Below, in pieces: positions 12,910-59,415 of a stretch of 64,000 nucleotides of DNA; the stretch's first letter is position 1, and each line of letters begins with the position of its first letter. The stretch is taken from contig NZ_CABFKH010000001.1 of NCBI RefSeq assembly GCF_901764975.1, forward strand, positions 124,001 to 188,000, in the 5' to 3' direction. The DNA is from Actinobacillus indolicus (lineage in GTDB: Bacteria > Pseudomonadota > Gammaproteobacteria > Enterobacterales > Pasteurellaceae). Made by a program: the position numbers and the translations under genes. The notes under the pieces are model-generated. The model had not been told where the DNA came from, did no database searches, and was given only the letters and a program-made list of their open reading frames with translations.

Positions 12910-12973
12910 AACAAGCGGTCTGATTTTAAGAAAATTTTGCAAAATTTCCCCATAATCAAACCGCTTGTTTTTT
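12910..12973 (+). terminator. ruvAB terminator from an inverted uptake-signal pair
   Basis: AACAAGCGGT (12910-12919) pairs with ACCGCTTGTT (12960-12969), followed by TTTT. The two arms are exact opposite-orientation uptake signals with their AT-rich tails lying between them. Confidence 0.7.
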
Positions 12974-16710: not shown

Positions 16711-17694
16711 ATGTCAGCGATACACAATTTACTTTTAGACGTGCAAGATCTGCGTGTCAATTTTAAAACACCCGATGGTATGGTAACCGCCGTAAACGAT
16801 CTTAACTTTACCCTTGATGCAGGGGAAACATTGGGGATCGTAGGGGAGTCAGGTTCAGGTAAATCTCAAACTGCCTTTGCGTTAATGGGGTTATTGGCGG
16901 CAAACGGGATTGTGTCAGGTTCGGCAAAATTTCGTGGTAAAGAGCTAGTCAATTTACCCACGGCGGAATTAAATAAAATCCGTGCGAATGAAATTGCAAT
17001 GATTTTCCAAGACCCGATGACCTCGTTAAATCCGTATATGAAAGTCGGTGAGCAGTTAATGGAAGTGTTAATGCTACACAAAGGCTTAGGCAAAGAAGCA
17101 GCATTCAATGAATCGGTCAAAATGTTAGATGCGGTAAAAATGCCTGAAGCCAAAAAACGTATGGGTATGTACCCTCATGAATTTTCAGGCGGTATGCGCC
17201 AGCGTGTAATGATTGCCATGGCATTGCTGTGTCGCCCGAAATTATTGATTGCCGATGAGCCGACAACTGCATTAGACGTGACAGTTCAAGCACAAATCAT
17301 GACCTTATTGAATGAACTCAAACGAGAATTCAATACCGCTATTATTATGATTACCCATGATTTAGGGGTAGTGGCAGGAATCTGCGATAAAGTGTTAGTC
17401 ATGTACGCAGGCAGAACGATGGAATACGGCACGGCGGATCAAATTTTCTATCACCCGACCCACCCTTATTCGATTGGTTTAATGGATGCGATTCCACGTT
17501 TAGACGGACAAGCGGAAACCTTAGTCACCATTCCAGGTAATCCGCCGAATTTATTACAATTACCAAAAGGTTGTCCGTTCTCGCCACGTTGTAAACATTT
17601 TAGCTCTCAATGTTTGGTTGCCCCGCAACTCGAGCGTTTAGATGACGGTCGTTTACGTAACTGTTGGATTCCAGTGGAGAAGTTTGCCCTATGA
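16711..17694 (+). CDS. oppD: Oligopeptide ABC transporter ATPase OppD
   Basis: ATPase subunit, 327 residues. Walker [12 protein letters not shown] (near residue 46), Q-loop [12 protein letters not shown], signature [20 protein letters not shown], Walker [15 protein letters not shown] and switch [13 protein letters not shown] are present. The C-terminal oligopeptide-transporter extension includes a cysteine set ([15 protein letters not shown]) likely to hold an iron-sulfur or metal site, as in Dpp/Opp ATPases. The stop overlaps the oppF ATG (ATGA). Confidence 0.95.
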
Positions 17695-18686
17695 GCCAAA
17701 ATATGACAGAGAAAAAATTGATTCTTGAAGTCACAAACTTGGATGTGAACTTCAAAATTAAAGATAAAAAAGCCCTCTTTTTTGCCAAACCGCAAACGCT
17801 CAAAGCGGTCAATAACGTATCGTTTAAATTATACGAAGGTGAAACCTTAGGTGTGGTTGGAGAATCTGGTTGTGGTAAATCAACCTTAGCCCGAGCTATT
17901 ATCGGCTTGGTTCAATCATCAGCAGGGAATATCGTTTGGTTAGGTAAAGATTTGAGTCATCAATCAAAAGCAGAATGGAAGAATACCCGAAAAGATATTC
18001 AGATGATTTTCCAAGATCCACTGGCTTCACTCAACCCTCGTATGAATATCGGCGAAATTATCGCAGAGCCGTTGAAAATTTACCAACCACAATTAAGCGA
18101 TGCGGAAGTGAAAGAACGTGTGCAAGCGATGATGATGAAAGTGGGATTATTACCAAACTTAATCAACCGCTATCCCCACGAGTTTTCAGGCGGACAATGT
18201 CAACGTATCGGAATTGCTCGAGCGCTGATTATTGAACCGAAAATGATTATTTGTGATGAACCTGTTTCAGCGCTCGATGTATCGATTCAAGCTCAAGTAG
18301 TGAACTTATTGAAATCGTTACAAAAAGAGATGGGCTTATCGCTGATTTTCATTGCCCACGATTTAGCAGTGGTAAAACATATTTCCGATCGTGTGTTGGT
18401 GATGTACTTGGGTAATGCGGTGGAGCTAGGTACGGATGATGAAGTGTATAACCACACTAAACATCCTTATACCAAAGCATTAATGTCTGCGGTGCCGATT
18501 CCTGATCCAAAATTGGAACGTAATAAAGAAATTCAATTATTGGAAGGAGATTTACCATCGCCAATTAACCCTCCGTCAGGCTGTGTGTTTAGAACACGCT
18601 GTCCGCTTGCCGATGAAAATTGTGCGAAGGAAAAGCCTGTGCTGAAAGGCAACGACAGCCATTTTGTTGCTTGCTTTAAAGCTTAG
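17691..18686 (+). CDS. oppF: Oligopeptide ABC transporter ATPase OppF
   Basis: Second ATPase of the importer. The start is taken at ATG 17691, overlapping the oppD stop (ATGA) and preceded by GTGGAGA; a longer in-frame frame from 17664 adds residues without homology. The 331 residues show Walker A GESGCGKST, FQDPLASLNPRMNI, signature FSGGQCQRIGIARALIIEPK, Walker B MIICDEPVSALDVS and the C-terminal GCVFRTRCPLADENC cysteine motif. It is the last gene of oppABCDF, and a palindromic repeat follows. Confidence 0.95.
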   Translation: MSQNMTEKKLILEVTNLDVNFKIKDKKALFFAKPQTLKAVNNVSFKLYEGETLGVVGESGCGKSTLARAIIGLVQSSAGNIVWLGKDLSHQSKAEWKNTRKDIQMIFQDPLASLNPRMNIGEIIAEPLKIYQPQLSDAEVKERVQAMMMKVGLLPNLINRYPHEFSGGQCQRIGIARALIIEPKMIICDEPVSALDVSIQAQVVNLLKSLQKEMGLSLIFIAHDLAVVKHISDRVLVMYLGNAVELGTDDEVYNHTKHPYTKALMSAVPIPDPKLERNKEIQLLEGDLPSPINPPSGCVFRTRCPLADENCAKEKPVLKGNDSHFVACFKA

Positions 18687-18906: not shown

Positions 18907-20274
18907 TTATTCAATCAATCCTTTCTTCAATCTCTCAAAATAACTTCTCGTTTCTTCAATTACCACGTGACGTAATGCCACTAATGCAACTAAGTTCGGG
19001 AATGCCATTAATCCATTCACAATATCCGCAATCGTCCAAATAGTGCTTAATTTAATAAATGGTGCGACGGCAATTAATGCAATAAAAGCAAGGCGGTAAA
19101 ATTTGATCCACTTCGTTCTACCACCAGTTAAATAGACAAAGCAACGTTCACCGTAATAACACCACCCTAAAATAGTTGTAAATGCGAAGAAGACGAGGCT
19201 AACTGTCACAACTAATGCACCAATAGAACTATTTAATCCTTCTGAAAAGGCTAAATTGGTTAATTTAGCGCCTTCTGTTGAACCACTCCAAACGCCAGTT
19301 AATACAATGACTAAACCTGTCATCGTACAGACAATGATGGTATCGAGAAATGTTCCTGTCATAGAGATTAACCCTTGACGTACAGGTTCTTTGGTATGAG
19401 CCGCAGCCGCTGCAATAGGCGCAGATCCTAAACCTGATTCATTCGAGAAAATACCTCGGGCCACACCCGCTTGGATGGCTTGCATTACAGTAAAGCCAAA
19501 AATACCCCCAAGTGCAGCTTGCGGATTAAAGGCTGCATGAATAATCAATCCAATCGTTTCAGGAATTCTGTCGGCGTGAGTAATCAAGATAAAAAGAGAG
19601 GCTACCACATAGCTTATCGCCATAAATGGTACGATCACCATCGAAATTTTAGAAATACGTTTTACGCCACCCAGTGTAATTGCAGCTACGGTTAAGGTTA
19701 AAATAACCGCAGTAATGTTGATTGGTAGGCTAAAGGTATCTTCTAATGCGGTTGTGATACCGTTAATTTGCGGGAATGTCCCGATACCAAATAGGGCGAC
19801 CATCACGCCAAATATAGCAAATAATTTCGCGAGCCATTTCCATTTTTGACCCATACCTAATTCAATGTAATACATTGGGCCACCAGCAATAAAGCCGTCT
19901 TTATCTTTGGTGCGGAATTTTAGAGCAAGTAAACATTCGGCATATTTGGTAGCCATGCCAAAAAGAGCGATGATCCACATCCAAAAGACTGCACCAGGGC
20001 CACCTGCTTGAATTGCGGTCGCGACACCGACAATATTTCCCGTACCAATAGTGGCAGCGAGTGCAGTGGAAAGCGCACCAAAGGCGGAAATATCACCGGA
20101 TTGGTTATCGCCTTTTTCTCGTTTAAACATGTAAGAAAAAGCACGTGGTAAGCTGAAAAATTGGATAAGTTTTAATTTTAAGGTGAAGTAAATGCCTACA
20201 CCTGAAATTAAAATGAGGAGGGGAGGTCCCCAAACGATACTGTTGATATTATTTAGAATGGTGTCGATTGACAT
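18907..20274 (-). CDS. Sodium:alanine/glycine symporter (AGCS family)
   Basis: Inner-membrane Na+-coupled amino-acid symporter. The start is the ATG complementary to 20272-20274 (MSIDTILNNINSIVWG) with GAGGAA upstream; the frame extends 23 further codons but these lie in the leader. The 455 residues have about ten helices and the AGCS signatures GTGNIVGVATAIQAGGPGA near residue 85, GGPMYYIELGMG near 140 and GVARGIFSNESGLGSAPIA near 270, with GERCFVYLTGG near the end. A tandem glycine riboswitch (20380-20580) lies in its leader, so glycine is a likely substrate or signal; alanine is the other family substrate. Confidence 0.93.
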   Translation of the reverse strand: MSIDTILNNINSIVWGPPLLILISGVGIYFTLKLKLIQFFSLPRAFSYMFKREKGDNQSGDISAFGALSTALAATIGTGNIVGVATAIQAGGPGAVFWMWIIALFGMATKYAECLLALKFRTKDKDGFIAGGPMYYIELGMGQKWKWLAKLFAIFGVMVALFGIGTFPQINGITTALEDTFSLPINITAVILTLTVAAITLGGVKRISKISMVIVPFMAISYVVASLFILITHADRIPETIGLIIHAAFNPQAALGGIFGFTVMQAIQAGVARGIFSNESGLGSAPIAAAAAHTKEPVRQGLISMTGTFLDTIIVCTMTGLVIVLTGVWSGSTEGAKLTNLAFSEGLNSSIGALVVTVSLVFFAFTTILGWCYYGERCFVYLTGGRTKWIKFYRLAFIALIAVAPFIKLSTIWTIADIVNGLMAFPNLVALVALRHVVIEETRSYFERLKKGLIE

Positions 20275-20323
20275 AATTGATTCCTCGTAAAAACTACTTA
20301 CAAGGAAAGAAAAGTGACAAAGA

Positions 20324-20368
20324 CAAGCGGTCAGATTTTGCAAAAAATTTGCAAAATGTCACCGCTTG
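20324..20368 (-). terminator. Candidate riboswitch expression platform: uptake-signal hairpin
   Basis: CAAGCGGT (20324-20331) and ACCGCTTG (20361-20368) pair, with an inner stem ATTTTGCAAA/TTTGCAAAAT (20335-20344/20348-20357). In the minus-strand mRNA this hairpin lies about 15 nt after the second glycine aptamer and 50 nt before the start codon. The following bases (TGTCTTTGTC) are only moderately U-rich. AGAAAAGT just after the aptamer could alternatively pair with ACTTTTCT beyond the hairpin. Its switching role is inferred. Confidence 0.5.
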
Positions 20369-20379
20369 AGTGATTCTAC

Positions 20380-20580
20380 TTTTCTCCCCTGTCCTTTTGC
20401 CTGAGCGTTTCACATGACTTACTGTATATCGTTATGTCGTTGCTTGCGCCTTCGGCGTCCATTTTCTGCTTCTGCAGAGTGGATCTCTCCAAGGGTTCGT
20501 CCAATAGCTGTCCTCGCTGTCGCACCTGAAAGATTTTACCTCGTCGGTGTAGGGTTGATTCCCTACTCTCCAGCTATCTT
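20380..20580 (-). ncRNA. Tandem glycine riboswitch (gcvT-type) in the symporter leader
   Basis: Read on the minus strand, aptamer I starts with GATAGCTGGAGAGTAGGGAA (P1 partner CAGCTATT near 20502-20509) and contains CACCGACGAGGTAAAATC, CAGGTGCGAC and GCGAGGACAG. Aptamer II follows after a short linker with TTGGAGAGATCCACTCTGC, GCCGAAGGCGCAAGC and the highly conserved CGCTCAGGCAAAAGGACAGG ending near 20384. These are the consensus elements of the glycine riboswitch, in its usual two-aptamer form. A promoter (20617-20644) lies directly upstream, and the symporter start codon is at 20274. Confidence 0.93.
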
Positions 20581-20616
20581 CATCCGAACTGTCTTCTTCA
20601 TATAAGAAGGGCGCAA

Positions 20617-20644
20617 ATTCTAGCAATTTTTATTTATCAGTCAA
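20617..20644 (-). promoter_or_regulatory. Promoter of the glycine riboswitch/symporter transcript
   Basis: On the minus strand TTGACT (complement of 20639-20644), 16-nt spacer, TAGAAT (complement of 20617-20622). The expected start near 20610 leaves about 30 nt before aptamer I. Confidence 0.65.
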
Positions 20645-35229: not shown

Positions 35230-35265
35230 ACAGACCGCTTGTATTACACAAGCGGTCTGTTTTTT
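35230..35265 (+). terminator. Perfect inverted uptake-signal terminator after mrcA
   Basis: ACAGACCGCTTGT (35230-35242) and ACAAGCGGTCTGT (35248-35260) form a perfect 13-bp stem with a 5-nt loop and TTTTT after it. Both arms are full uptake signals; a good rho-independent terminator. Confidence 0.9.
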
Positions 35266-43639: not shown

Positions 43640-43698
43640 AACAAGCGGTAAGATTTGAGATTTTTTTGCAAAAAATTGAACGAATCTTACCGCTTGTT
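43640..43698. terminator. Bidirectional inverted uptake-signal terminator
   Basis: ACAAGCGGTAAGATT (43641-43655) pairs with AATCTTACCGCTTGT (43683-43697); it lies between the convergent TonB receptor and metallophosphoesterase genes, so it can serve both. Confidence 0.75.
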
Positions 43699-59369: not shown

Positions 59370-59415
59370 ACAAGCGGTGAGATTTACCTATTTTTTTGCA
59401 AATCTCACCGCTTGT
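59370..59415 (-). terminator. alr terminator, inverted uptake-signal pair
   Basis: ACAAGCGGTGAGATTT (59370-59385) and AAATCTCACCGCTTGT (59400-59415) are perfect complements over 16 bp. On the minus strand it follows the alr stop by 5 nt and ends with only a short T content, so efficiency is uncertain. Confidence 0.7.

Follow-up and report, generated by a model that had tools for sequence, protein, structure and literature searches.

Can a sequence that serves DNA uptake also become part of a riboswitch and, if so, is it the part that switches? The question is raised by a leader that separates agcS (minus strand) from the divergent hemC (plus strand) in Actinobacillus indolicus, within the 64,000-nucleotide stretch of DNA that was analysed here (the window). 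A preliminary description had placed both aptamers of a tandem glycine riboswitch in this leader, with a good promoter just upstream, and had taken an inverted pair of uptake signals (USSs) after the second aptamer for the hairpin that may do the switching. The features on which this starting point rests are:

18907..20274, minus strand: agcS, AGCS family amino acid carrier protein, with its ATG at 20274 (TIGR00835, 527 bits)
from 20742, plus strand: hemC, divergent from agcS
20617..20644, minus strand: promoter-like TTGACT-16-TAGAAT (consensus scan, 10/12, with TG before the second hexamer)
about 20504..20577, minus strand: glycine aptamer I, with P1 AUAGCU/AGCUAU and a GGAGAG core (motifs read directly)
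20379..20502, minus strand: glycine aptamer II, RF00504 (63.3 bits against a gathering score of 32)
20490..20495, minus strand: 5′ strand of the aptamer II P1 helix (P1-II), CCCUUG
20386..20391, minus strand: 3′ strand of P1-II, CAGGGG, the strand that changes partners

The TIGR00835 match confirms that the leader belongs to an AGCS symporter gene on the minus strand, and the encoded protein is 95% identical to the AgcS of a Glaesserella australis record. Just upstream of the aptamers, the promoter-like site at 20644-20617 was also recovered by a consensus scan; the region has three such sites, where shuffles lead one to expect 1.1. Two overlapping genes at 16711-18686, read from their ORF translations as ATPases of oligopeptide/dipeptide-type ABC transporters, face agcS head-on.

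Of the two aptamers, both of which had been called clear, the second is so by its RF00504 score, which is the only match to this family in the source genome. Aptamer I is present by its motifs, but it has no RF00504 match in the window even at E ≤ 1. Glycine binding and control of the gene by the leader are putative functions. A search of 140 Pasteurellaceae genomes for RF00504 gave matches in 132, and in all 132 the next gene matches AgcS. Two RF00504 matches were counted from the match table in 64 of the 132 riboswitch-positive relatives, the GGAGAG of aptamer I is exact in 113/132 leaders, and its core motifs were seen by eye in the printed rows of 40 genera. The P1-II pairing CCCUUG/CAGGGG occurs in every one of the 132 leaders, with only the preceding base differing in one of them (AACCCTTG in 131, ACCCCTTG in the remaining one). 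In A. pleuropneumoniae, a glycine riboswitch from Rfam is listed among small RNAs found by RNA-seq, and the available portion of the text of that paper gives no mechanism for it (PMC4809551).

Between aptamer II and the start codon, the following elements were found:

20378..20385, minus strand: AGAAAAGU, the linker strand at the foot of the USS stem (predicted folds; covariation of a 13-bp helix)
20324..20368, minus strand: inverted Apl-type USS pair, an apical hairpin predicted to be constitutive
20308..20315, minus strand: ACUUUUCU, partner of the linker strand (predicted folds)
20297..20307, minus strand: UUCCUUGUAAG, anti-Shine-Dalgarno arm (predicted folds)
20281..20291, minus strand: UUUACGAGGAA, Shine-Dalgarno arm, with GAGGAA at 20286-20281

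The upper hairpin is, as had been described, an inverted uptake-signal pair. It has the form CAAGCGGT...ACCGCTTG (20368-20324), which occurs 41 times in the genome, this pair included, while the same pattern read backwards does not occur there at all. The 9-mer USS is matched exactly by the 3′ arm and at 8/9 positions by the 5′ arm, TCAAGCGGT. That the signals are of the Apl type is clear from the genome, which has 795 ACAAGCGGT cores and 40 copies of the reversed pattern; within the window there are 29 exact copies of ACAAGCGGT, where 0.30 would be expected, and no Hin-type cores. The Apl-type USS promotes DNA uptake in A. pleuropneumoniae, according to a passage of PMC1626085. The spacing of the leader pair and its TTTGCAAA-like flanks are those of most of the 40 other pairs in the genome. 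Fifteen of the 41 pairs, including that of the leader, were compared for context and tails: a crude ORF rule puts five of them within ORFs, and the tails of the fifteen have 1-7 T of 8 over both strands, a range in which the leader pair is not set apart. Other close, opposed USS 9-mers in the window lie at 12911-12968, 43641-43697, 59370-59415 and 35234-35256, three in +- order and one in -+ order.

USS type was assigned per genus from core counts, giving 17 Apl, 19 Hin and 4 of neither type among the 40 riboswitch genera; the Apl-assigned genera g20 and g23 have low USS counts. The eight genomes without an RF00504 match belong to genera g11, g12 and g40 (G035-G039 and G132-G134), and Hin-USS counts are highest in g11 and g40.

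A GC-rich stem made of two USSs in this position could itself be the switch, acting as a transcription terminator (attenuator) under aptamer control. USS pairs are common in predicted Pasteurellaceae terminators, according to a passage of PMC1852404 that cites Kroll 1992 and Smith 1995, and the leader hairpin has the same +- pair as these terminator-type hairpins. Five of the eight bases of its tail, TCTTTGTC, are T, and the tails of its relatives average 3.88 T against 3.03 from leader composition. These values fall short of the U-tract that directly follows the stem of an intrinsic terminator, however, and only one of the 33 Apl leaders with a CCGCTT arm has at least six T in the next eight bases. 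Furthermore, the leader pair is absent from the terminator-like sites of a crude scan (loops of 3-8), its stem is paired in both predicted states of the leader, and an Apl core follows the aptamer in 0/83 Hin-type and 0/7 USS-poor leaders. Unlike the terminator-type pairs, it stands in a 5′ leader between divergent genes without a conserved U-tract, and since hemC is divergent there is no upstream gene on the agcS strand that needs termination. The T content of the tails and the terminator scan thus speak against this reading, which we regard as improbable.

The USS pair had also been described as the sole hairpin in the stretch from aptamer II to the start codon, which does not hold, as a second hairpin, UUCCUUGUAAG-UAGUU-UUUACGAGGAA, is predicted at 20307-20281 on the minus strand and contains the GAGGAA. 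The stretch that holds both (20392-20255) folds at -48.9 kcal/mol, with a z score of -7.7. In the predicted folds, AGAAAAGU/ACUUUUCU surrounds the USS hairpin and the two can form at once, so that the USS pair forms the top of the linker-strand stem within the expression platform. An alternative to the USS hairpin had been proposed in the pairing of AGAAAAGT with ACTTTTCT; this had to be abandoned, because the two strands flank the hairpin, are nested with it and extend its base.

The competition that does appear in the predicted folds involves the second hairpin. The UCCUUG of UUCCUUGUAAG resembles the 5′ strand of P1-II, CCCUUG, and is predicted to be able to invade P1. The GGGG of P1-II would accordingly have two alternative partners, CCCUUG or UUUCCUUG, which would otherwise cover the Shine-Dalgarno sequence. 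In the resulting switch helix, the 3′ strand of P1-II and the linker, AGGGGAGAAAAGU, are predicted to pair with ACUUUUCUUUCCUU, the end of which is the Shine-Dalgarno-masking arm. The growing transcript was analysed by equilibrium folding at successive RNA lengths. At length 293, GGGG is on the P1 5′ strand at 0.86; at lengths 299-317 this falls to 0.00 and GGGG is on the invading strand at 0.99-1.00; at full length it is back on P1 at 0.68, and the GAGGAA, which has by then emerged, is masked at 0.77. Over these lengths P1 and the masking hairpin form and open in step. Equilibrium energies without ligand already favour the masked state (0.77), which weighs against a ligand-controlled switch. 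The 5′ arm of the USS hairpin has a pairing value of 1.00 at length 293 and at all greater lengths.

Most of the 40 genera retain both the switch helix and the hairpin that masks the Shine-Dalgarno sequence. The Shine-Dalgarno sequence reads CGAGGA in 123/132 leaders, and TCCTTG is found near the start in 106/132 (CCTTG only in six, neither in 20). Covariation of the switch helix was assessed in 39 of the 40 genera, with one leader (L045) left out for its length: 81.4% of 506 cells are paired against 76.0% in shuffles, and two-sided changes are seen in 32 cells where shuffles give 18.1. The pairs with such changes number 4, no more than in shuffles (4.4). The helix strands also fit their own partners better than those of other genera, with a duplex energy of -16.19, as low as none of 2,000 permutations, against a cross-genus value of -13.98 (sd 0.36). 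As the same permutation test is weak within clades (94/2000 for Apl, 147/2000 for Hin), much of this signal is the split between the clades.

For the Shine-Dalgarno hairpin, 88.2% of 399 cells in 40 genera are paired against 86.2% in shuffles, and six cells changed on both sides against 0.6, these changes falling in just two pairs, a number that 46 of 500 shuffles reach. Its outermost pair fails in 21/40 leaders and its innermost in 11/40, and slid versions of the hairpin attain covariation scores of up to 0.117 against 0.095. Its arms form a duplex of -11.80 with their own partner against -11.02 across genera (0/2000 permutations as low), with the own duplex better than the row median in only 10/40 genera and the arm nearly invariant in the Apl clade (1674/2000 in the permutation test). 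Forcing P1 lowers the accessibility of the Shine-Dalgarno sequence in 120 of 121 distinct leaders (means of 0.142 against 0.242), and the drop exceeds 0.05 in 80 of them. Leaders with a shuffled middle also drop in 187/240 cases, by 0.083 against 0.126 in the real leaders (39 of 40 genera), and the test is therefore weakly specific for real leaders.

The computed pairing, conservation and covariation all give a Shine-Dalgarno sequence that is masked by a strand competing for P1, as in a translational OFF switch; the direction of the glycine response and translation as the controlled step are what we infer from here. In such a switch, bound glycine would hold P1-II (CCCUUG/CAGGGG) in place, leaving UUUCCUUGUAAG free to pair with UUUACGAGGAA and mask the agcS Shine-Dalgarno sequence. 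Without glycine, UUUCCUUGUAAG, which has a UCCUUG like the P1 5′ strand, would invade P1 via GGGG, the Shine-Dalgarno sequence would open and the importer would be made. The AGAAAAGU/ACUUUUCU stem, with the USS pair on top, would be formed in both states and keep the invading strand beside P1.

This direction agrees with what has been reported for glycine switches of symporter genes. OFF glycine switches control sodium-alanine symporters and have a more variable aptamer I, according to a passage of PMC13104608, an OFF class that fits agcS and its weak aptamer I; OFF variants are also stated, in a part of PMC9495176, to prevent translation. The opposite response, in which glycine frees the Shine-Dalgarno sequence, has a precedent in the ON switches before glycine-cleavage genes (also in PMC13104608), but the same source assigns symporter leaders to the OFF class, and P1 and the masking hairpin move together in folding, so we consider an ON switch very improbable. 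In our judgement, the leader is likely to be a tandem glycine riboswitch that turns translation off, in which the USS-topped stem remains constant in both states. The evidence points to the exchange of strands between P1 and the anti-Shine-Dalgarno arm, and not to the USS hairpin, as the real switch.

What, then, is the USS pair doing in this leader? The filling of the apical position follows lineage. At least one exact Apl core follows the aptamer in 39/42 Apl-type leaders (15/17 genera), with both arms exact in 15/42, and at the Apl loci core density is 9.91 per kb in the leader tail against 0.60 per kb elsewhere. All 42 Apl leaders contain GGGGAGAAAAG, which is found in 0/90 others, and CTTTTCTTT(A)CC downstream, which was counted in Apl leaders only. 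Hin cores follow the aptamer in 10/83 Hin-type leaders (g18 and g13). As the genomes are related, the Apl and Hin counts are statistically dependent, and the simplest reading would be a single ancestral gain of USSs in the Apl clade followed by decay of either arm. The comparison with leaders of Hin-type species that had been suggested earlier favours a structural filling, with Apl cores lacking and the switch parts mostly kept; most USS-free leaders retain the Shine-Dalgarno hairpin and the switch helix, and many leaders outside the Apl group have unrelated hairpins at the USS position. A wider set added 27 new loci, two of them Pasteurellaceae and 25 in other families of the order; of these 25, 11 gave no motif with the pattern used and 14 were readable by eye; the latter have a similar layout without USSs (for example, GAGGAGUGGAAAG ... 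CUUUC-ACUCUUCUCCUUAA ... UUAAGGGGAA), less clearly in L160 and L172.

The stability of the apical hairpin was compared with shuffles in 111 of 115 distinct leaders, after four Hin-type leaders without a usable insert were dropped. Apl leaders have a mean z of -3.71 (34/41 at p ≤ 0.05) and Hin leaders one of -1.90 (31/63 at p ≤ 0.05, 63 of 67 being examined), while 4/7 USS-poor leaders are at p ≤ 0.05. The apical loop is permissive, though most leaders have a hairpin there.

In a permissive untranslated loop, uptake bias could by itself have accumulated USSs, and the pair would then be a passive passenger, which is compatible with the switch model. The loop also hosts other hairpins, extra hairpins and, in one agcS leader (L045, genome G115), a 165-nt repeat with inverted ends that lies between the strands of the switch helix, which is still able to form; that genome has six further near-full copies, seven with that of the leader. 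A leader of putative [Haemophilus] ducreyi (L030) has no exact USS core, and its switch helix remains and is longer. This species has inactivating mutations in three competence genes, according to a passage of PMC1626085. Moreover, the exactness of the two arms is not positively linked, both being exact in 15/42 leaders against 17.1 expected. Against a mere passenger, apical hairpins stabler than shuffles are common (z below -1 in 40/41 Apl, 39/63 Hin and 6/7 other leaders), and in two Actinobacillus leaders (L024 and L026, g2) the drifted arm still pairs through G-U. We give the passenger reading slightly less than an even chance.

In the Haemophilus leaders L011-L020 (g18), a Hin-type USS occupies the same leader position, as ACCGCACTT in 9/10 leaders, and opposite it lies AAGTGTGG, a degenerate arm in which pairing persists through G-U. 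It is conceivable, if rather doubtful, that USSs were recruited separately in both dialects as a scaffold hairpin of the switching arm that speeds or steadies strand invasion, with one sequence kept for both DNA uptake and RNA control. The function of the stem and the reason for the retention of its USSs are what we infer here. Of the earlier proposal that an uptake motif had been co-opted into riboswitch control, the part that stands is architectural: the pair sits atop the platform stem and its core is present in 39/42 Apl leaders, so that the uptake motif is built into the riboswitch. The part that does not stand is the USS hairpin as the switch of the expression platform, as it is paired in both predicted states and has no conserved U-tract. 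The pair is a clade-wide structural filling, apparently a scaffold and not a switch.

Translational glycine OFF switches are a known kind. The agcS leader shares aptamer II, the tandem order, the kind of gene, a weak aptamer I and a predicted translational platform with OFF tandem glycine riboswitches (RF00504) before sodium-alanine symporters; it differs from them in that its switching stem carries an inverted USS pair and in that its glycine response is predicted. The variant here would thus be a lineage-specific inverted USS pair that stands as a constitutive hairpin in the switching arm. Translational riboswitches with an anti-RBS strand, such as E. coli btuB as outlined in a section of PMC13104608, likewise mask the Shine-Dalgarno sequence in response to a ligand; unlike there, the masking strand of the agcS leader resembles a P1 strand of aptamer II. 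Among open-licence papers, none was found that joins a riboswitch or expression platform with a DNA uptake sequence, and the platform may be described elsewhere. PMC7237195 was set aside as such a precedent, since, among the places listed for it, the uptake sequence is mentioned solely in a note on a primer and in the title of a cited work.

For the Pasteurellaceae, these leaders would offer a natural series for asking whether uptake signals gain RNA functions, in which one conserved switch carries a varying apical hairpin, with USSs in one clade, the USS of the other dialect in certain species and hairpins of unrelated sequence in the remainder. They may also serve as a compact system for studying how P1 strands exchange, with a Shine-Dalgarno-masking arm that resembles a strand of the aptamer.
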